From: Pseudomonadota bacterium | GTDB lineage: Bacteria; Bdellovibrionota; Bacteriovoracia; Bacteriovoracales; Bacteriovoracaceae | DNA: 53,660 nucleotides | Direction: 5' to 3' | Assembly (NCBI GenBank): GCA_027487685.1 | Contig: JAIYDC010000018.1 | Location: 1 to 53,660, forward strand | Part shown: positions 9,053-42,643 of the stretch, one piece after another | Position numbering within the stretch: position 1 is the stretch's first letter | Layout: each line of letters opens with the position of its first letter | Made by a program: the position numbers and the translations under genes | The notes under the pieces: generated by a model | Told to the model about the DNA's origin: nothing | Database searches by the model: none | Seen by the model: only the letters and a program-made list of their open reading frames with translations

Positions 9053-9676
9053 TTGAGTTTTTTATATGTGGATTCTTCGTACGACCTTTGCTTAGGCGTC
9101 TTGGATGACGAATTAAACTGGCTCGCCTATGAATCCCATTCTGGAGTGAAAGCATCTGCAATCATTCAGGAACGGACGGCGCTTCTTCTTGGGCAATTGG
9201 ATCTTAAAGCGGCTGATCTTTCAGGTGTGATAACCGTCAATGGGCCGGGCTTTTATACAGGTATCCGACTCATGGAAGGGTTTGCAAATGTGCTCGGCTT
9301 TTTTGGGGTACGAATTTTTTCTTTTTATTCTTATGACGTTCCTCTCTGGGCCGGACATTGTCATGGTACATGGTTTACGAAGGCATATCGGGGCGAGTAT
9401 TTTCTTTATACTTGGGAAGGAGATAGTTCATTCAAAAATCTCGTTTCATCGAGTGAACTACCTACTGCCCTGGCAAGCCTAAATGATCAATCATTCTTTA
9501 TTCATTCAGGAGCTTCGCTAGATTCGCTGAGTGCCTCACTGCTTTTGAACCCTATTTCGACGGCTGAATTGATCAGAGTTGCCCCGAAAAAGGTCTTTGC
9601 GGAAGTTCTAAAAGGTCGGGTCTGTGAACCGTATTACTTTCGCGCACCTGAGGATGAGTTTAAGGTCAATCCGTGA
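9053..9676 (+). CDS. tsaB: tRNA threonylcarbamoyladenosine biosynthesis protein TsaB-like
   Basis: TsaB is the ASKHA-fold partner that binds TsaD and TsaE for t6A modification of ANN-decoding tRNAs. The 207-residue product starts with a TTG codon (9053), giving MSFLYVDSSYDLCLGVL. This aligns with the family N-terminus, where a DTS/DSS motif opens the first strand. Residues about 62-80 (VNGPGFYTGIRLMEGFANVL) match the TsaB GPGSFTGLR signature. The C-terminal half is divergent. It begins 3 bases after rseP and overlaps the next gene (GTGA). TsaD and TsaE are not in the window. Confidence 0.8.
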   Translation: MSFLYVDSSYDLCLGVLDDELNWLAYESHSGVKASAIIQERTALLLGQLDLKAADLSGVITVNGPGFYTGIRLMEGFANVLGFFGVRIFSFYSYDVPLWAGHCHGTWFTKAYRGEYFLYTWEGDSSFKNLVSSSELPTALASLNDQSFFIHSGASLDSLSASLLLNPISTAELIRVAPKKVFAEVLKGRVCEPYYFRAPEDEFKVNP

Positions 9677-10347
9677 AGCGCTTTTTCTTCCTGCCTACTG
9701 AAGTTACTTATCTCTCATTTGCCAGCATCGTTTACGCTTTTCTAAAACTTCCTCTCTTGTTGGAAATTCCGATCCTCCTTGGGAGCTCCCTCGTTTTATT
9801 TCTTTTTCGACGAGGCCGAATTCCCTATCGAGAGACCCTTAAAATGGAGGGGGAGATTTACCTTTCGCCTGTGCATGGAACGATAGAATCGGTTCGGCAC
9901 TCTGTTCCAGGTTCCGTCTTTTCCTTTCCGTGTCATGAAGTGAGAATTTCGCTTTCATTCTGGGATGAGAAGGGACTTTATTTACCTACAAATGCTGAGT
10001 CATCCTTCATGAAGTCGAGTAAAGGCTTGAAACTTTCGCGGCGCGGGCCGGGCCATTTTTTCTATGGCTCCCTTGAGGATGTTTCTCATACTGATCTCAC
10101 TCTGTTGTCAAAAAACAACACTCAAACATTAATTCGCTTTATTGATTGCCCTCTGGGTCTGAAGCCAAGTATCTGGTTGAAATCCGGTGACCGTGGACGA
10201 GGAGCAGCTTGTTTTGGGTATTATCCTTTTGGTGGGACTCTGTTAATCTACCTGCCTGCCACAAGCGATGTACTCGTGTATGAGAAAGAACGAGTTACAC
10301 CCGGACAAACCGTCATCGCGGCACTCAAAGATCAAACGAAGGGTTAA
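9673..10347 (+). CDS. Phosphatidylserine decarboxylase homologue lacking the catalytic triad
   Basis: The fold is assigned to the Psd family from SPVHGTIESV (65-74), LSFWDEKGLYLP (94-105), FGYYPFGGTLLIYLP (181-195) and a final VTPGQTVIAAL segment. These line up without gaps with E. coli Psd segments as I recall them. The residues that make Psd an enzyme are changed. The Asp of SPVDG is His68, the two His of DYHRVH are Lys100 and Tyr103, and the pyruvoyl-forming Ser of FGST is Gly188. It should therefore neither self-cleave nor decarboxylate. One or two N-terminal membrane helices (about 10-48) precede the domain. The GTG start overlaps the tsaB stop and pssA follows at once, so a lipid-related role is likely but unknown. 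Confidence 0.75.
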   Translation: MKRFFFLPTEVTYLSFASIVYAFLKLPLLLEIPILLGSSLVLFLFRRGRIPYRETLKMEGEIYLSPVHGTIESVRHSVPGSVFSFPCHEVRISLSFWDEKGLYLPTNAESSFMKSSKGLKLSRRGPGHFFYGSLEDVSHTDLTLLSKNNTQTLIRFIDCPLGLKPSIWLKSGDRGRGAACFGYYPFGGTLLIYLPATSDVLVYEKERVTPGQTVIAALKDQTKG

Positions 10348-10348
10348 T

Positions 10349-11101
10349 ATGCTTTTAGAGAACCGTCGCCTCGCTTATTTTATTCCTAATACATTCACTG
10401 CTCTCAATATGGGATGTGGGTTCATTGCCATCCTCTTCGCATTTCATGGAGAGTACTACAAAGCGTGCATGTTTATTGTACTAGGGGCCATTTTTGATAG
10501 TGTCGATGGGCGCATCGCTCGTCTCACAAATACTCAGTCTACCTTCGGTGAGCAGTTTGACTCTCTAAGCGACTTGGTCTCGTTCGGTGTGTCTCCTGCA
10601 ATTGTTTATTATTTTAGGTTTCTCGCCGATGCCGGCCGGCCAGGAATGGTCGCTTGCTTCTTCTTCATGCTTTGTGGGGCACTTCGTCTCGCCAGATTTA
10701 ATGCGACGATTGACAAGAATAAAACAGATTATTTCCAGGGGCTTCCTATCCCAGGTGGAGCAACTGCCGTTATCAGTTTAATTTTCCTCTCCTTCAACTT
10801 TCCTGTGATCGCTGAGTACAAGCCACTGACTGTGGGCTACCTCCTTTTTTACGCTGCTCTTATGGTTTCCAATATCCCATTCCCCAGCTTTAAGAAGTCT
10901 GAATGGGTCAAGCACCATAAGAAGCAAGTTCTTATGGTTATCTTCTTAATCATGGCTTCATTATTCATTTACGAAGAGATCATGATTCCGGCGATCATTA
11001 CGACCTACGTCGTAGCGTCGCTTACTTATTGGTTAACTCATCTTAAAAGGTTCGAAGGCATCTTCGACTGGTCAGAAGAAGCTGAAAACGATTTGAAGTG
11101 A
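10349..11101 (+). CDS. pssA: CDP-diacylglycerol-serine O-phosphatidyltransferase
   Basis: Type II membrane phosphatidylserine synthase: CDP-diacylglycerol plus serine gives phosphatidylserine, the precursor of phosphatidylethanolamine. The CDP-alcohol phosphotransferase motif is complete: DSVDGRIARL followed by GEQFDSLSDLVSFG, supplying the metal-binding Asp residues. Several hydrophobic segments follow. The start chosen is ATG 10349 (250 residues, MLLENRRLAYFIPNTFT), one base after the psd-like stop. The in-frame ATG at 10268 would add 27 residues that only read the end of the previous gene in another frame. It overlaps truA. Confidence 0.93.
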   Translation: MLLENRRLAYFIPNTFTALNMGCGFIAILFAFHGEYYKACMFIVLGAIFDSVDGRIARLTNTQSTFGEQFDSLSDLVSFGVSPAIVYYFRFLADAGRPGMVACFFFMLCGALRLARFNATIDKNKTDYFQGLPIPGGATAVISLIFLSFNFPVIAEYKPLTVGYLLFYAALMVSNIPFPSFKKSEWVKHHKKQVLMVIFLIMASLFIYEEIMIPAIITTYVVASLTYWLTHLKRFEGIFDWSEEAENDLK

Positions 11102-35032: not shown

Positions 35033-38000
35033 TTATTCCGTCACCCTGATGACCATAAAGGCACCCCCCACAAGCGCTGTGCCACTTGTGCGCGTGTGTT
35101 GGACCCAGTAGCGGTTAAGGTTGGTGAGGCTGAGGGCCGTGCTTCGTTGCATGGTGTAGGTTGCGGCCGGTGTGATTGTATTCACCGTCGTAGGAGAAGT
35201 CACTCCGGTATCGACTGCTCCATTAGTCATAAGGACTACTGCACTAGTGGTCGTATTACTCCAGGCCTGGAAATAGACCGTAGGATTTTGCCATGCACTA
35301 GCATCCCAGAGGAATCGATGATCGGGAATGGTTGCCGTTGTGGTGGCACTACGTCGAGTCGACAAGCGATTATAGATTTCGGCCTTTTTGAGGTACTTGA
35401 GACGAAGCCATAAACCCGCTTTGAATAAGCGTGCAGTATGTGAAACGTTGCTAGTGCGGAGACGAACTTCCATTACGTCTCCATCCTCGAAGTTCGTCGC
35501 ATTGCCTGCGAAGTTTGCCTGCCTAACGGCCACGCCGGTAGTCCCTGTAACAGTGGTTGTGGCCGCAGTGATCTGAAGGTTGTTTGTCTTATCAAAGAGT
35601 GCGGCCGTAGCGGTACTTGCAGTGTTGGAAATGCTGGAGATTGTTTCTAGAGTCCAAGGTGTCCCTGTCGATGGGATCGCGTCGTAGGCCCCATCATTGC
35701 GGGTCCAGAAGTAAAAGTTACTTGCCGTAGGTTGGATAAAAGTCGTGCTCGTTGTCGAGATTACGTTACCGGTGGTATCAGAGTTAGTTTCGCCGGTGAC
35801 ATCGCCACCAATGAGAGGAATATAAATTCGAGACGCCACTGCGTTAGTCTGTTGGATAACTATTTTAGCAGAGTGAATCCTTACTTGACTCGCTAAGGCC
35901 GTTGCCGGTACCCGAATGCGGTAGGTGTCTGAAGCAACGGGCGGAGTCCATACGATGCTGAAGCGCCTTTGAGTCGTTGATGGAGGGATGGCAATCGAAC
36001 TGTCCGCAATGACAGTTCCGGCGGAATTGATGAGAGACACATTATAAGTCGTCGTCGTGTTAGTGTTATCGGCAATAAATTCGAAGCTGTAGGTACTGGA
36101 CTCACCGACGTAATCATTAGTATTAACCGAGGTTGACGACCTCAGGAAGTTTATCGCAGTGGTATTTGATGCGAGCCCTCGATCTATCATCTCGATCGGG
36201 ACAATGAGATCAATCCCTGAAGGATTAAAGTCAACGGTATTGCCAGTAACAGCGACTGGAGTGAGGAGTGAGAATGTCTTGCCTTCCGCTTTTGTTGAAG
36301 TCACCTCACAGACCGCCACACCTGCGCTGTCTGTTGCTGGACAAGCTCCGATAGTGTTGGAGCTTCCGCTAACGGAATAGGTTGGGGTTAGTCCCGAGAT
36401 AGCGTTACTGAAGGCATCTCGCAAAGTGATCGTCACCTCGGCAGGAGTAGTGCCGTTGGCAAGATTCGGATCTGAAGCCAGAATTGTTGATGTTACAGAT
36501 GAAACGGCCCCTGGAGTGAACTCGATGTCAGGTCCTGCTTTTACAATCGGTGCAGAGATGGAAATAGTTTTAAGCTCTGCTTTCGTTGAAGAGATGGTGC
36601 AGGTGGAGATACCAGAGGTGTTTGTGGCCGAACAGGTGCCTAAGTTATTACTAGTCCCAGTGGAACTGATTGTCGGAACGTTAGCAATCACAGGAGCGTT
36701 GAGTGAGTCACGGAGAGTGATAGTGATAGTGGAAGTGGCGACTCCATTGGCGAGGATTGGGCCAGTGCCGGATATCGTAGAGTTGACAGCGACAGCGGAT
36801 CCAGACTGGAAGACGACACTTCCGTCGGTCTTTGCAATTGGAGTGAGAATCGAAAGTGTCTTCGTTTCCGGCATGCTTGAAGAAAGAGTACAAGTTGATA
36901 CTCCAGTTGTTGCAGTCGCCGAACATGAACCATAGTTGTTACTGCTTCCGCTCGCGGAGAATGTTGGGGTGACGGCACTGATTGGGTTTGAGGATGCGTC
37001 GCGGAGAGTGATGGTAATTGTCGAGGTCGACGTTCCGTCAGGGTTTACAGGACCTGTCCCTGTGATAGTAGATGTGGCAACCGCGGCCGGGCCAGGGATA
37101 AAAGAGATACTGCTCCCCGTTTTGCTTACCGGGGTTAAGAGCTGGGGAACCTTTGACTCTGCCTTTGTCGATTTGAGCGTACAGGTAGAGGAACCGGCCG
37201 CATTGGTTACAGAGCAAGCGGTCTGCACATTGGTGGTGCCAGTGTTCGTGGCAGAGAAGGTCGGAGTCACTCCGGAGACTGGATTATTATTGGTGTCGGC
37301 CAGGGTCACAGAGATTGTAGAGGTCGCGATACCATCTGCTATTACTGGTCCTGTTCCAGCGATACTTGAATTAGTGGCAACTGCTGCACCTGCAACAAAA
37401 GTGATCGTGCTTCCTGGTTTTGTGACGGGGTTAGTAATCCTAAGAACCTTACCCTCTGCTCGAGTTGATGAGAAGGTGCAGATAGAAACGCCTCCTGCAT
37501 CGCTCATAGAGCAGCTATCGTAGACGTTCCGTGTGTCTGTGTCGGTGGCGTCGAAGGTTGGTACAATCCCGGCCACTGCATTGTTGCCTGAGTCTTTGAG
37601 TGTGATCGTGACCGTTGAACTCGCTCCACCGTCTGCCACGACTGGCCCTGTACCAGTGATACTGGAGTTGGCAGAGGTCGGAAGGAGTGCAGAAAAAGTG
37701 ACAGGAGAAGACCCTGTAACTGCGATGGGTGAGGTCAACTGAAGTGTCTTGGCCTCAGCGCGTGTTGCGGCCAATGAGCAGCTCGCAGTACCTAAGGTTG
37801 TCGTAGCTGTGCAGGCGCCGTAAACATTGGTTGAGTCCGTGTCCGTAGCATTGAAAATAGGGGTGACTCCACCGATTGGATTCCCGAAGGCATCTGCCAG
37901 AGAAACAGTGATAAAGGAAACTGATACACCATCTGCGCTCACGGGAGATGTACCAATGATGTCGGAGTTCGCAGCACTTGGAGATCCGGCCACGAAAGTT

Positions 38001-41000
38001 ACCGTTCCATCTGCTTTGGTAATTGGGGTTGCTATCGAAAGGGTCTTAATCTCTGCCCGCGTGGAAGACAAAGTGCAAGTGGCCTCACCAGTTGCGAGGG
38101 TCGCTGAGCAGGCGCCGTAGGTGTTGGTGGTCCCGGAGTTGGTCGCTGTGAAGGTTGGAGTTGATCCTATGACTGGATTATTGTTTGCATCTCTAAGTGT
38201 AATCGTGACAGTTGAGGTACTTACTCCGTCGGCAATGACTGTTCCTGTTCCGGTAATTGAAGAGTTCGCAGGAATCGCGGCTCCGGCCGTAAAAGTCACA
38301 GTCCCGTCTGCCTTAATTATGGGAGTTTCAATTTGGAGTGTTTTAAGTTCCGCTCGTGTTGATCTGAGAAGGCAGGTCGAGAGTCCGGCCACACTGGTCG
38401 CTGAACATGATCCGTAGTTGTTACCACTTCCTGTATTGGTAGCAGAAAATGTCGGGACAAGTCCGGCGATGGGATTGTTATTAGCGTCGCGCAGTGAGAT
38501 GGTGACAGTGGAAGATGCGGTTCCGTTAGCGATCACTGAACTCGTCCCAGTGATGGAAGAGTTGGCAGTCGATGGGGAACCCGCTGTGAAAACAACATTG
38601 CCCCCAATTTTAGTGACTGGAGAAGTAATGGAAAGTGTCTTTGTCTCCGCACTAAGTGAGGATAGGGTGCATGTTGAGATCCCTGAAACAGAGGTCACGC
38701 TGCATGCACCAAGAACGTTGGTTCCACCAGTGTCAGTCGCTGAGAAGTTCGGAGTTAATCCTGCTACGGGGTTGGAGAAGGCGTCACGGAGTGTGACCGT
38801 GATTGTCGAGGTCGCAACTCCATCGGCAATGACTGGGCCAGTGCCAGTGATCGTAGAAGTCCCTGCAACTGCCGCTCCGGCAGTGAAAGTGACTGTTCCG
38901 CCTGTCACCGAGATCGGAGTGACAAGGGAGAGAGTTTTTAATTCTGCATTCTGAGAAGAGATGCTGCAGGTTGAAGAGCCCAATGAGTTAGTGGCCGAAC
39001 AAGCGCCGTAGACATTTGTACTTCCCGTGTCCGTGGCGCTAAAAGTAGGTGTCTCTCCACTGATCGGGTTACTATTGGCGTCCCTTACCACGATCGTAAT
39101 ATTACTGGTGGCAACTCCGTCGGCAGCAACCGGAGAGGTTCCAGTGATTGTTGTCGTTCCTGTTGCTGCAGCGCCTGGGACAAAGCTGACGGTTCCACCT
39201 GTTTTCGAAACAGGGGTGAGAAGCTGAAGGGTCTTCACTTCGGCTTTGGTTGATGAGAGGGTACAGGTTGCAGACCCTGCTGAATCAGTTGTGGAGCAGG
39301 CACCGTAATTATTCACTGAGCCTGTGTCTGTGGCCGAGAAAGTGGGAGTCTGCCCAATGACAGGGTTAGAGTTTACGTCGCGTAAAGTGATGGTAACAGT
39401 TGAAGTGGCCATGCCGTCAGCGACGACAGTACTAGATCCGGTTATGGAAGAGTTCGAAGCGACCGCACCACCGGCAGTGAAGGTCAGAGTTTGACCCATT
39501 TTAGAGAAAGGAGCTGTGACTTCAAGCACCTTCGACTCCGCCGCAAGGGAGCTCAAAGTACAGGTCGATATGCCTGAACTGTCTGAAGCGGAGCAGGTAC
39601 CGTAGCTGTTTGTGCTTCCGGTATCGGTGGCGGCGAAAGTAGGCACGACACCTGTCACCGGATTATTCGAGGCATTCCGAAGCTCGATCGTCACGATGGC
39701 ATTTGAGGCCCCATCGGCGACAGTGGGTGTTGTTCCCGTAATCTGGGAATTCGCTGCAACGGGAAAGTTTCCGGCGATGAATACTGATGAAGTATCTGGT
39801 GCCGTGAAGCTTAAGTTTGTCAGTTGGTTTCCGTTTTCGTCGGCAATGGTTCCGGAATTTAGATCCAATGAAGAATTTACTGAGACTCCGTCATCGTCAG
39901 TATCGGCAGCGAGTAAGGAATAGCGGAAGTTCGCAGTGGCTCCCGAGAAGGAAACCAAGCCTGCTGTCCGGCTTTGACTTCCGATAGTTATCAATATTCG
40001 AGGCGTGCCAACGATGTCGATAGGCTCCGAAAAGGTGACGGAGAAGTCTAGATTCTGAGGAGAATCATAGGTCCCGGCACTAGGGCCCGTCACATTGGTT
40101 ATGGTAGGTCTAATTCCGTCTACTTTAACGTTTGGCGCGTTTCCGTTAGTAAATGATAGTGGAGCAGCGTCTCCAAAGACGTCGGTGATGCTGCCTCCCG
40201 CGAGATCAATCGGGGACTGCCAATCAATGCCGTCCGTATCCTCATCTGCCGAGGCTACGACATACTGAAAGGTAAGTGAGGGCGTTCCGGACCCTGCAAA
40301 GTAAACAGCGGAAACCGGTCCAGTACCTATGTTGACTGCAAATCTCGGTGCGCCGGTTACCGTCACCGGATGATCGTAGGTGACTGTAAAATTGAGTGCA
40401 TCGCCTACCTTGTAGATATTCTGCCCAGGTTCGGTGACGCTTGATAGTAACGGGTCGATGCCGTCAATGAGTACGCCCGAATCCACAGGTGGTGTAAACG
40501 TAAGGAGCGCGTCCCTTGAGAGAGAGATATTTTTGATCGTTCCCCCACTAAGATCGATGGGTGATGAGACCGAGGGCCCATTCGTATCATAATGACCATC
40601 GGCCACGACGTAACGAAAGAGAAGTGTATTCGTCCCGCCGCCACTCACATAATCAGCGTAGACAGTACCGCTTTCGAGAGCTAGTTCGATCCGTGGGACC
40701 GAGGTGACAATCACTGCTTCGGAGTATGTAACTGTGAGGTTGAGAGATTCACCAGTTTCATATTTAGCTGCACCAGGCAGTGCTACTGAGACAATTGTTG
40801 GAGTCGGTGACTGGACAATTATTCCCGATGTGTCGCTCATTGCCAGTGTAAGAGCAGCGATGTTTGCGTTCGCATCGAGAATGGAACCACTATTTAAGTC
40901 TATGGCCGCATTTAGGGTGATACCGTTCAGGTCTTCATCTGTTGCACTTACTTGATACTGAAAACGAAGAGTAGATGTACCTGAACCAGAGAGGAGTATT

Positions 41001-42643
41001 GCATGTTTGGTATTGCCTCCGATATCCAGCTGGAGTCTAGGCGCCCCCGTTACAATCACGGTCTCGTCGAAGGTGACGTCGAAGATCAGATCCTCTCCGT
41101 CGGTGTAAGTACGAGGAGAGGGCAAAGTGTTCATCGTAAGAAGAGGCCCTTGGGCGTCGACTTTAACGGCCGTCGTGTTCGGTGAAGTAAAGTTCAGTAT
41201 CGGTGGATTGGACCCACTGGTGATGGTTGATCCATTGAGCTGCAAAGGACTCGATAAGGTGACGCCAGTTGAGTCATAGTCTCCAGCGCCAACGACGTAG
41301 GCGTAAGTGAGGGATGCTGTTCCAGAGCCCGTCGAGTAGGTCGCATAATGTGAAGTCCCCCCAACGTCGATGAGAAGTCTGGAAGTTCCGCCGGTCTCAG
41401 TTACTGGTTGAGAAAAGTTGACAATAAAAGGGATCGAATCCCCAGTCTTATACCCATTCACTGGAGGAGAAATTGGTCCAGAGACGCTCAGGATGATGGG
41501 GGTTCCATCCCCTTGTACATCCACATCGGCCAGGTTGGGCACCAGGAAGATTGGGCGGGCCGATTGACCAGTTCCGTCTGTGATTGTACCGGTACTTAGG
41601 TCGAGTGTGTTTGAGAGACCAATTCCATCAGTATCGCTGACTGCACCGACCACTGTATAACGGAAGGTCAGAAGTGCGGAGCCGGAACCGGAGACGTAGG
41701 TAGCGTACTGAGTTATTCCTCCGACATCCAGAACAAGACGCGGTACTGAAGAAACTGTTGCGGGTTTGCTAAAGCTTAAGGTGAAGTTGAGATCCTGACC
41801 CAAGTTAAAAGTACCTGCTGCTGGCGGAGTGACGAAAGTAACGACCGGCGCATCTGACACAAGTACGCTCGATGTATCGGGAGTCACCAAGGTCAGTTCA
41901 GCGGCATGAGATGCATCTCGGATTGATCCGCCGTTAAGAGTGATTGTCCCTGAAAGACCAATACCATCTGAGTCGACGTCGGCCAGCGTTATGCCGTATG
42001 CAAAGTTTAAAGTGGCCGAACCAGATCCGGACACGTAGCTGGCCGTGCGGGATACTCCCCCTAGATTCAGTGCTAGCTGGGGGAATCCGGTGACATTAAC
42101 AGCTTCACTGTAGGTCACTTGGAAAAGTAGTGTCTGGGCAAAATAATAAGTTCCGTTCGTAGGTGCTGTAACCGAGACCACTACCGGGATATCTGCGTCG
42201 ACGCGAACTGAAGTCAGGGTCGGAATCGTAACATTTGATGGACAAGCTTCAGCTGTACCGTCGACTTTCGTGCAAGTGATGGTCCCTCCACTGACGTTGA
42301 CCTGAGAATTCACTGCCATTCCGTTGAGATCTAGATCCCCAGGAACCACGAGGTAGCGAAATAGAAGCTCATTGGATCCGGAGCCAGAAATATAGCTGGC
42401 CGTGCGAGAGTTGCTTCCAAGAACCAAATCGAGTTCTGGAGCACCAGTGACATTGATCACCCTTGAGTGCCTGAGCAGAAGGTCGATCGTATCGCCCGCT
42501 TTATAAGTTCTATTTAACGTCGTACTCAGAGTCAGCTGGTTCGTCTGCCCGGATGGCGTCAAGATGCCACCCCCGCCTCCGCCTCCGGAGGCTTGGCACC
42601 CTAAAAGGCCCAGGAGTGTGAAAAGAATTAAGATAGACTTCAT
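35033..42643 (-). CDS. Giant lipoprotein with 8 adhesin-type and 12 Big_1-like Ig repeats
   Basis: Predicted outer-membrane or surface lipoprotein of 2536 residues. MKSILILFTLLGLLGC has lipobox LLGC (Cys16), Gln at +2, then a run of 7 Gly. Residues about 34-962 are 8 repeats of about 116 aa (V-TGAPxLxLxIGGxxRxAxYxSGSG, then L-F-Y-V--D-D--GI-L---IDLNGGTI-D). Residues about 963-2143 are 12 repeats of about 98 aa (SSITGTGPVVADGVATSTVTITLRDANNNPV, PTFSATDTGSTN-YGACS, STCTLSS), matching the Big_1/invasin-type Ig fold. Each Big_1 unit has a conserved Cys pair C-x10-C. A unique region of about 390 aa (2145-2536) ends in VIRVTE. Likely adhesin or surface fibre; target unknown. Confidence 0.85.
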   Translation of the reverse strand: MKSILILFTLLGLLGCQASGGGGGGGILTPSGQTNQLTLSTTLNRTYKAGDTIDLLLRHSRVINVTGAPELDLVLGSNSRTASYISGSGSNELLFRYLVVPGDLDLNGMAVNSQVNVSGGTITCTKVDGTAEACPSNVTIPTLTSVRVDADIPVVVSVTAPTNGTYYFAQTLLFQVTYSEAVNVTGFPQLALNLGGVSRTASYVSGSGSATLNFAYGITLADVDSDGIGLSGTITLNGGSIRDASHAAELTLVTPDTSSVLVSDAPVVTFVTPPAAGTFNLGQDLNFTLSFSKPATVSSVPRLVLDVGGITQYATYVSGSGSALLTFRYTVVGAVSDTDGIGLSNTLDLSTGTITDGTGQSARPIFLVPNLADVDVQGDGTPIILSVSGPISPPVNGYKTGDSIPFIVNFSQPVTETGGTSRLLIDVGGTSHYATYSTGSGTASLTYAYVVGAGDYDSTGVTLSSPLQLNGSTITSGSNPPILNFTSPNTTAVKVDAQGPLLTMNTLPSPRTYTDGEDLIFDVTFDETVIVTGAPRLQLDIGGNTKHAILLSGSGTSTLRFQYQVSATDEDLNGITLNAAIDLNSGSILDANANIAALTLAMSDTSGIIVQSPTPTIVSVALPGAAKYETGESLNLTVTYSEAVIVTSVPRIELALESGTVYADYVSGGGTNTLLFRYVVADGHYDTNGPSVSSPIDLSGGTIKNISLSRDALLTFTPPVDSGVLIDGIDPLLSSVTEPGQNIYKVGDALNFTVTYDHPVTVTGAPRFAVNIGTGPVSAVYFAGSGTPSLTFQYVVASADEDTDGIDWQSPIDLAGGSITDVFGDAAPLSFTNGNAPNVKVDGIRPTITNVTGPSAGTYDSPQNLDFSVTFSEPIDIVGTPRILITIGSQSRTAGLVSFSGATANFRYSLLAADTDDDGVSVNSSLDLNSGTIADENGNQLTNLSFTAPDTSSVFIAGNFPVAANSQITGTTPTVADGASNAIVTIELRNASNNPVTGVVPTFAATDTGSTNSYGTCSASDSSGISTCTLSSLAAESKVLEVTAPFSKMGQTLTFTAGGAVASNSSITGSSTVVADGMATSTVTITLRDVNSNPVIGQTPTFSATDTGSVNNYGACSTTDSAGSATCTLSSTKAEVKTLQLLTPVSKTGGTVSFVPGAAATGTTTITGTSPVAADGVATSNITIVVRDANSNPISGETPTFSATDTGSTNVYGACSATNSLGSSTCSISSQNAELKTLSLVTPISVTGGTVTFTAGAAVAGTSTITGTGPVIADGVATSTITVTLRDAFSNPVAGLTPNFSATDTGGTNVLGACSVTSVSGISTCTLSSLSAETKTLSITSPVTKIGGNVVFTAGSPSTANSSITGTSSVIANGTASSTVTISLRDANNNPIAGLVPTFSATNTGSGNNYGSCSATSVAGLSTCLLRSTRAELKTLQIETPIIKADGTVTFTAGAAIPANSSITGTGTVIADGVSTSTVTITLRDANNNPVIGSTPTFTATNSGTTNTYGACSATLATGEATCTLSSTRAEIKTLSIATPITKADGTVTFVAGSPSAANSDIIGTSPVSADGVSVSFITVSLADAFGNPIGGVTPIFNATDTDSTNVYGACTATTTLGTASCSLAATRAEAKTLQLTSPIAVTGSSPVTFSALLPTSANSSITGTGPVVADGGASSTVTITLKDSGNNAVAGIVPTFDATDTDTRNVYDSCSMSDAGGVSICTFSSTRAEGKVLRITNPVTKPGSTITFVAGAAVATNSSIAGTGPVIADGIATSTISVTLADTNNNPVSGVTPTFSATNTGTTNVQTACSVTNAAGSSTCTLKSTKAESKVPQLLTPVSKTGSSISFIPGPAAVATSTITGTGPVNPDGTSTSTITITLRDASSNPISAVTPTFSASGSSNNYGSCSATATTGVSTCTLSSSMPETKTLSILTPIAKTDGSVVFQSGSAVAVNSTISGTGPILANGVATSTITITLRDSLNAPVIANVPTISSTGTSNNLGTCSATNTSGISTCTISSTKAELKTISISAPIVKAGPDIEFTPGAVSSVTSTILASDPNLANGTTPAEVTITLRDAFSNAISGLTPTYSVSGSSNTIGACPATDSAGVAVCEVTSTKAEGKTFSLLTPVAVTGNTVDFNPSGIDLIVPIEMIDRGLASNTTAINFLRSSTSVNTNDYVGESSTYSFEFIADNTNTTTTYNVSLINSAGTVIADSSIAIPPSTTQRRFSIVWTPPVASDTYRIRVPATALASQVRIHSAKIVIQQTNAVASRIYIPLIGGDVTGETNSDTTGNVISTTSTTFIQPTASNFYFWTRNDGAYDAIPSTGTPWTLETISSISNTASTATAALFDKTNNLQITAATTTVTGTTGVAVRQANFAGNATNFEDGDVMEVRLRTSNVSHTARLFKAGLWLRLKYLKKAEIYNRLSTRRSATTTATIPDHRFLWDASAWQNPTVYFQAWSNTTTSAVVLMTNGAVDTGVTSPTTVNTITPAATYTMQRSTALSLTNLNRYWVQHTRTSGTALVGGAFMVIRVTE
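36215..39757 (-). repeat. Coding repeat array, 12 Big_1-type units of about 98 residues
   Basis: Twelve consecutive units encoded on the minus strand, each starting near xxxSxITGT and closing with the TFTAGA-type strand. The units differ at DNA level but keep the core residues, including two Cys in each. The most divergent are the last three, which lack the TDTGSTN extension. Units were counted by eye from the protein. Confidence 0.85.
39758..42544 (-). repeat. Coding repeat array, 8 Ig-like units of about 116 residues
   Basis: Eight units with the pattern V---Y--GD-L-F-V-FSE-V-VTG-P-L-L-IGG---A-Y-SGSGT-TL-F-Y-V---D-D--GI, then LNGGTI. This is a bacterial Ig-like/cadherin-like sandwich. The first unit carries a loop with two Cys (ITC and EAC) not present in the others. 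Boundaries are approximate. Confidence 0.8.

Follow-up and report, generated by a model that had tools for sequence, protein, structure and literature searches.

The locus considered here raises the question of what a gene related to phosphatidylserine decarboxylase (Psd) may do once its catalytic residues are gone, and why it would be kept next to pssA, the gene for phosphatidylserine (PS) synthesis. It lies in a window of 53,660 nucleotides, meaning the whole stretch of DNA that was analysed, from a member of the Bacteriovoracaceae, a family with known predators of other bacteria. The first-pass annotation described its product as an inactive decarboxylase retained in the PS operon, devoid of all three catalytic residues and wedged between tsaB and pssA with overlapping codons, and asked where the working enzyme might be, or whether the organism uses PS itself. 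The protein is named PsdX here, and the features needed for the discussion are the following.

9053..9676, + strand: tsaB, divergent, upstream neighbour of PsdX (TIGR03725, E 1e-11, below its cut-off)
9673..10347, + strand: PsdX, Psd-derived protein without catalytic residues, 224 aa (from the frame, profile searches and alignments)
9697..9804, + strand: two hydrophobic helices of PsdX, residues 9-25 and 28-44 (pLDDT about 90)
9865..9879, + strand: SPVHG of PsdX, residues 65-69, with His68 replacing the Asp of SPADG
9964..9987, + strand: DEKGLYLP of PsdX, residues 98-105, with Lys100 replacing the His (E. coli H144), a new conserved G101, and P105 kept
10186..10197, + strand: GDRG of PsdX, residues 172-175, whose Asp is not conserved in active Psds
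10225..10239, + strand: PFGGT of PsdX, residues 185-189, with Gly188 replacing the self-cleaving Ser of FGS
10349..11101, + strand: pssA, CDP-diacylglycerol-serine O-phosphatidyltransferase, downstream neighbour of PsdX (motif DG..AR..G...D...D intact by eye)

As for the gene itself, its frame runs uninterrupted from a GTG start at 9673 to a TAA stop at 10347; the start overlaps the stop of tsaB by 4 nt (GTGA, 9673-9676), and the ATG of pssA stands at 10349. The placement and the open frame described at first are therefore correct, but the overlap exists on the tsaB side only, the pssA side having a gap of 1 nt. A sequencing error or a one-strain pseudogene was rejected, as the substitutions recur in a relative with 82% identity and across the family. 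The TsaB of the window is very divergent, with 45 bits against the 69 required by TIGR03725, and it evolves faster than its neighbours. Elsewhere in the window, a frame of 2536 aa (35033-42643, - strand), with a lipoprotein-like start (LLGCQASGGGGGG) and many repeated units, probably encodes a surface protein.

Regarding its descent, PsdX matched NF003678 (PRK05305, short-type Psd) over residues 14-218 with E 2.7e-9, and PF02666 with E 7e-4; both scores were under the curated cut-offs, namely 36.7 against 225 bits for the former and 19.7 against 22 bits for the latter. Among the aligned relatives, NF003678 matched 20 of 20 sequences (best E 1.1e-15) and PF02666 matched 16 of 20 at E 0.01. An HMM built from seven intact short Psds gave 24.9-44.0 bits with 20 real PsdX sequences and a maximum of 5.3 bits with 2000 shuffled ones, used as a control, and profile-profile comparison (hhalign) of 20 PsdX sequences with 12 intact short Psds returned a probability of 98.9 and E 1.7e-17 over 196 columns. 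On account of the profile scores, the shuffle control and the profile-profile match, the homology is secure at the sequence level even without a structure, and PsdX is a divergent homologue of short-type Psd. AlphaFold2, run on 20 sequences only, reached a pLDDT of 62 with the window protein placed first and of 56 with a relative placed first, the N-terminal helices being the only part modelled confidently; Foldseek with the former model gave no match below E 0.4, and a sequence search of the PDB with the protein and the profile gave no relevant match. According to the model, the N-terminal helices are a probable membrane attachment.

PsdX shares with short-type Psd (PRK05305, NF003678, PF02666) its length, the two N-terminal hydrophobic stretches, SP..G, P105, the FG of the cleavage loop, the C-terminal strands, and pssA as a neighbour. 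It differs in the replacement of the active-site Asp, His and Ser, in the scores far under the curated cut-offs, and in the disappearance of the AG of the active family, along with N132, E133, N135, Q151 and the RRI stretch, which the PsdX family as a whole has lost.

The active site was read against the closest active relatives of PsdX, which are short Psds of ~215 aa and not the E. coli enzyme used in the first-pass annotation. In the latter, auto-cleavage depends on D90/D142-H144-S254, with H147 having a minor part; S254A remains uncleaved, and H144 mutants lose all decarboxylation (PMC7952604). In locally gap-free alignments with the active short Psds, SPVHG (H68) corresponds to SPADG, WDEKGLYLP (K100) to NVHVNRVP, and FGG (G188) to FGS. 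Among 87 aligned PsdX relatives, the Ser column holds Gly in 85, Ser in one (G074) and Lys in one (G028), against Ser in 12/12 active short Psds; His is found at the E. coli H144 position in 2/87 against 12/12, and Asp at the D90 position in 6/87 against 11/12. His and Ser never occur together in the aligned relatives (0/87), and the G137 copy, read separately from the alignment, has a Ser near the cleavage position without the His. The losses of Asp, His and Ser (H68, K100, G188) are thus confirmed, with Gly188 in place of a Ser at the cleavage point and with the same replacement in neighbouring taxa; Tyr103, instead, is no sign of loss, because the corresponding position (E. coli H147) is Arg in 12/12 active short Psds of the phylum, and it counts as a subfamily difference.

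One way for a modified decarboxylase to survive would be self-processing at Thr189 or Ser189, the residue beside the lost Ser. The register could indeed shift, as the long Psds have FGGST, one residue longer before the Ser, and the ungapped local register places Thr189, not Gly188, opposite it; in addition, position 189 is Thr in 50 of the 87 relatives and Ser in 10, and slow cleavage persists in E. coli His mutants (PMC7952604). However, the remaining relatives have Lys, Ile, Tyr, Glu, Phe and others at position 189, 85 of the 87 lack the His whose mutation in E. coli abolished decarboxylation (PMC7952604), and a competent Psd is already present in the genome, which makes self-processing extremely improbable. 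The window protein has no Ser in either register (188 or 189), and, with position 189 so varied and the His gone, PsdX is unlikely to be a surviving pyruvoyl enzyme.

The competent Psd is encoded on contig C145 (G000:C145:176781-177326; L001:1417-2343, - strand) and is the only PF02666 match in the organism's own genome (E 2.8e-45); its best NCBIfam match is NF001941 (PRK00723; 284 of 371 bits), and its motifs PVDYHRYHYP and FGGST are intact. An above-cut-off long Psd was found in 36 of 36 family genomes searched and in ten more, with DYHR.H and GGST where read. This long GGST-type Psd (PRK00723) belongs to the same Pfam family and the same pathway as PsdX; unlike PsdX, it has DYHRYH and GGST intact, measures 309-327 aa and has no linkage to pssA. 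It presumably performs PS decarboxylation, so that the PS-to-PE route looks complete from the genes present, and an end of the pathway at PS need not be assumed. Accordingly, the second intact psd that the first-pass annotation had sought exists, and its suggestion that PS itself may be used becomes unnecessary. Two further options, that the genome holds no other Psd and that it holds a second, active short one, were rejected, the former in view of the C145 gene and the latter in view of the single PF02666 match.

The long Psd on C145 has Glu (FAEARY) at the position of the Asp of E. coli SPADG; as it is common to every FGGST-type long Psd read in the phylum, this Glu looks like a trait of the subfamily. 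Two near-complete genomes of the phylum, G041 and G048, gave no PF02666 match, and G048 gave no PssA match as well; they may make no PE by the PssA-Psd route.

As for its distribution, PsdX was sought with the protein in its own genome and 57 relatives, and with a profile in 369 genomes of the phylum. About 120 of the 129 family genomes carry it: the profile detected 112 at E 0.001, and reading of the locus added eight, where divergent copies were found (G026, G081, G101, G121, G124, G136, G137 and G028, the last barely recognisable with E 4e-7). Retention of an inactive decarboxylase in the PS operon, as described at first, thus holds far beyond one genome. In five genomes (G112, G113, G114, G118 and G150) pssA comes immediately after tsaB and no PsdX copy lies between them; in G007, G134 and G138 (pssA not found) and in G135 (contig end) the presence of PsdX could not be judged. 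The losses fall in four genera (g47, g48, g52 and g67). The five genomes cleanly without it mean that PsdX is not universally essential, and, since they keep pssA, that PssA can work without it. In three of them (G112, G113 and G114) the long Psd is accompanied by additional Psd-like frames of 517-552 aa, and G112 also has one of 254 aa (loci L205/L211 in G114, L201/L210 in G112 and L203 in G113).

Outside the family, the PsdX profile matched in nine genomes only (G037, G045, G046, G052, G053, G294, G295, G303 and G363); these nine, with the genes from G038, G039 and G047, make up 12 short Psds with intact His and Ser. The one from G363 has Asn for Asp (SPANG), the others having SPADG/NVH/FGS. 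A 98-row tree separates the 12 intact short Psds from the other sequences at a branch supported with 100/99. This topology fits a single loss of catalysis, the deeper order being limited by long branches, and the pyruvoyl-forming Ser and the His were lost early in the family's radiation or before it.

The gene order is strict. Of 81 family loci, 80 have tsaB directly upstream of PsdX and 79 have pssA downstream in the same orientation; the deviating loci lie on short contigs, and every locus with both neighbours on the contig has the same-strand order tsaB-PsdX-pssA. Intact short Psds in other families likewise immediately precede pssA, with no tsaB recognisable there, and in some families with the long Psd only (G043, G049 and G056) tsaB or a tsaB-like frame directly precedes pssA with no Psd between. 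Such a position, together with likely translational coupling (1-nt gap here) and two membrane helices, would suit a protein that aids the folding or membrane targeting of PssA as a chaperone or structural element, with no lipid binding. This explanation is quite unlikely: pssA is far more conserved than PsdX, sharing 97% identity with the nearest relative where PsdX shares 82%, and survives in the genomes without it, and the kept Psd core would be superfluous.

Regarding selection, the dN/dS of PsdX is 0.04-0.13 in close pairs, lower than that of tsaB in six of the seven pairs with both values finite and one to three times that of truA, and pssA has about 0.02 or less in the same pairs; these ratios are rough because dS is saturated in several pairs. 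PsdX is under purifying selection. The family has gained near-universal G101, E109, P165, D173 (100%), G175, P185 and G188, with Gly172-Asp173 invariant in the 86 members compared, and a signature GLYxP, E, GDRG and PFGG has replaced the catalytic one. This new signature argues for some retained function without telling which of those suggested at first, lipid binding, regulation or a new activity, it would be, and the gain of near-universal residues means that PsdX is not a gene in plain decay. A relic in slow decay, open by chance or because it couples the translation of pssA to tsaB, would agree with the fast divergence of PsdX outside its own genus, with copies that are in places as short as about 185 aa and with the clean absence in five genomes; it is made very unlikely by the dN/dS values, by frames that are open across the whole family, and by invariant residues that are absent from the active relatives.

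The same signature could mark a new enzyme, in which the Psd core is re-used for a reaction on another lipid head group and Asp173 with its neighbours forms the active site. The invariant Gly-Asp and the conserved GLYxP/E109/GDRG/PFGG would then have taken the place of the old active-site residues, and, by analogy, uncommon head-group chemistry does occur among these bacteria, as B. stolpii is reported to have a unique sphingolipid with a phosphonate head (PMC6148460); for the lipids of Bdellovibrio/Bacteriovorax, this sphingophosphonolipid remark was the only one found in the literature. On the other hand, Asp173 is the sole invariant polar residue and the others are mostly Gly and Pro, more as expected for a fold or an interface, and five genomes have no PsdX, so that a new enzyme is unlikely.

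Taken together, it is rather probable that PsdX is a family-wide Psd pseudoenzyme with a new signature, which gained a function linked to PssA and other than decarboxylation, be it the control of PS synthesis or some new activity on lipids. More specifically, the resident short Psd would have been displaced when PS decarboxylation passed to the long Psd, leaving PsdX free. PsdX would be translated with PssA, would sit on the inner membrane via its two N-terminal helices and would keep a Psd-shaped, lipid-facing beta core, thereby serving PS synthesis as a non-catalytic partner that binds PssA or its product PS; it may modulate PssA, or else pass PS to the distant long Psd. Both the partner and the role are what we infer, and this displaced, membrane-bound partner in PS synthesis is put forward tentatively, its chances being somewhat less than even. 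Distance correlations gave PsdX a partial r of 0.25 with pssA, against 0.57 with truA and 0.34 with tsaB; this rate comparison and the five genomes without PsdX count against a universal, tight subunit of PssA. The fast divergence of PsdX outside its own genus and the low confidence of the modelled fold also weigh against the proposed partnership.

The logic of this partnership has a precedent in the AdoMetDC prozyme of trypanosomes, where a dead paralogue of a pyruvoyl-dependent decarboxylase acts as activator (PMC5201418). In both cases the dead paralogue is maintained beside a live one, PsdX having its live paralogue in the same genome and being under purifying selection. The prozyme belongs to another enzyme and pathway and activates its own paralogue by heterodimerisation; the live Psd of this genome comes from a different subfamily than PsdX, hence a Psd-type heterodimer of the two is not expected. 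If a dead decarboxylase paralogue serves a live enzyme here too, the adjacent synthase would be the likeliest partner. A dead paralogue kept as a partner is therefore a known idea; a limited search of the open literature found no Psd pseudoenzyme conserved in a bacterial family, and this case is apparently new.

In conclusion, PsdX belongs to the Psd family by descent and is no Psd by every catalytic residue tested. The annotation "phosphatidylserine decarboxylase family protein" is misleading for it, and a pathway reconstruction that used PsdX as the Psd would be wrong. The losses in g47, g48, g52 and g67 offer a comparison set for PsdX, and the family as a whole presents a natural experiment, in which a resident enzyme was apparently displaced by an isofunctional one and had its active site erased, the gene being kept beside the synthase.
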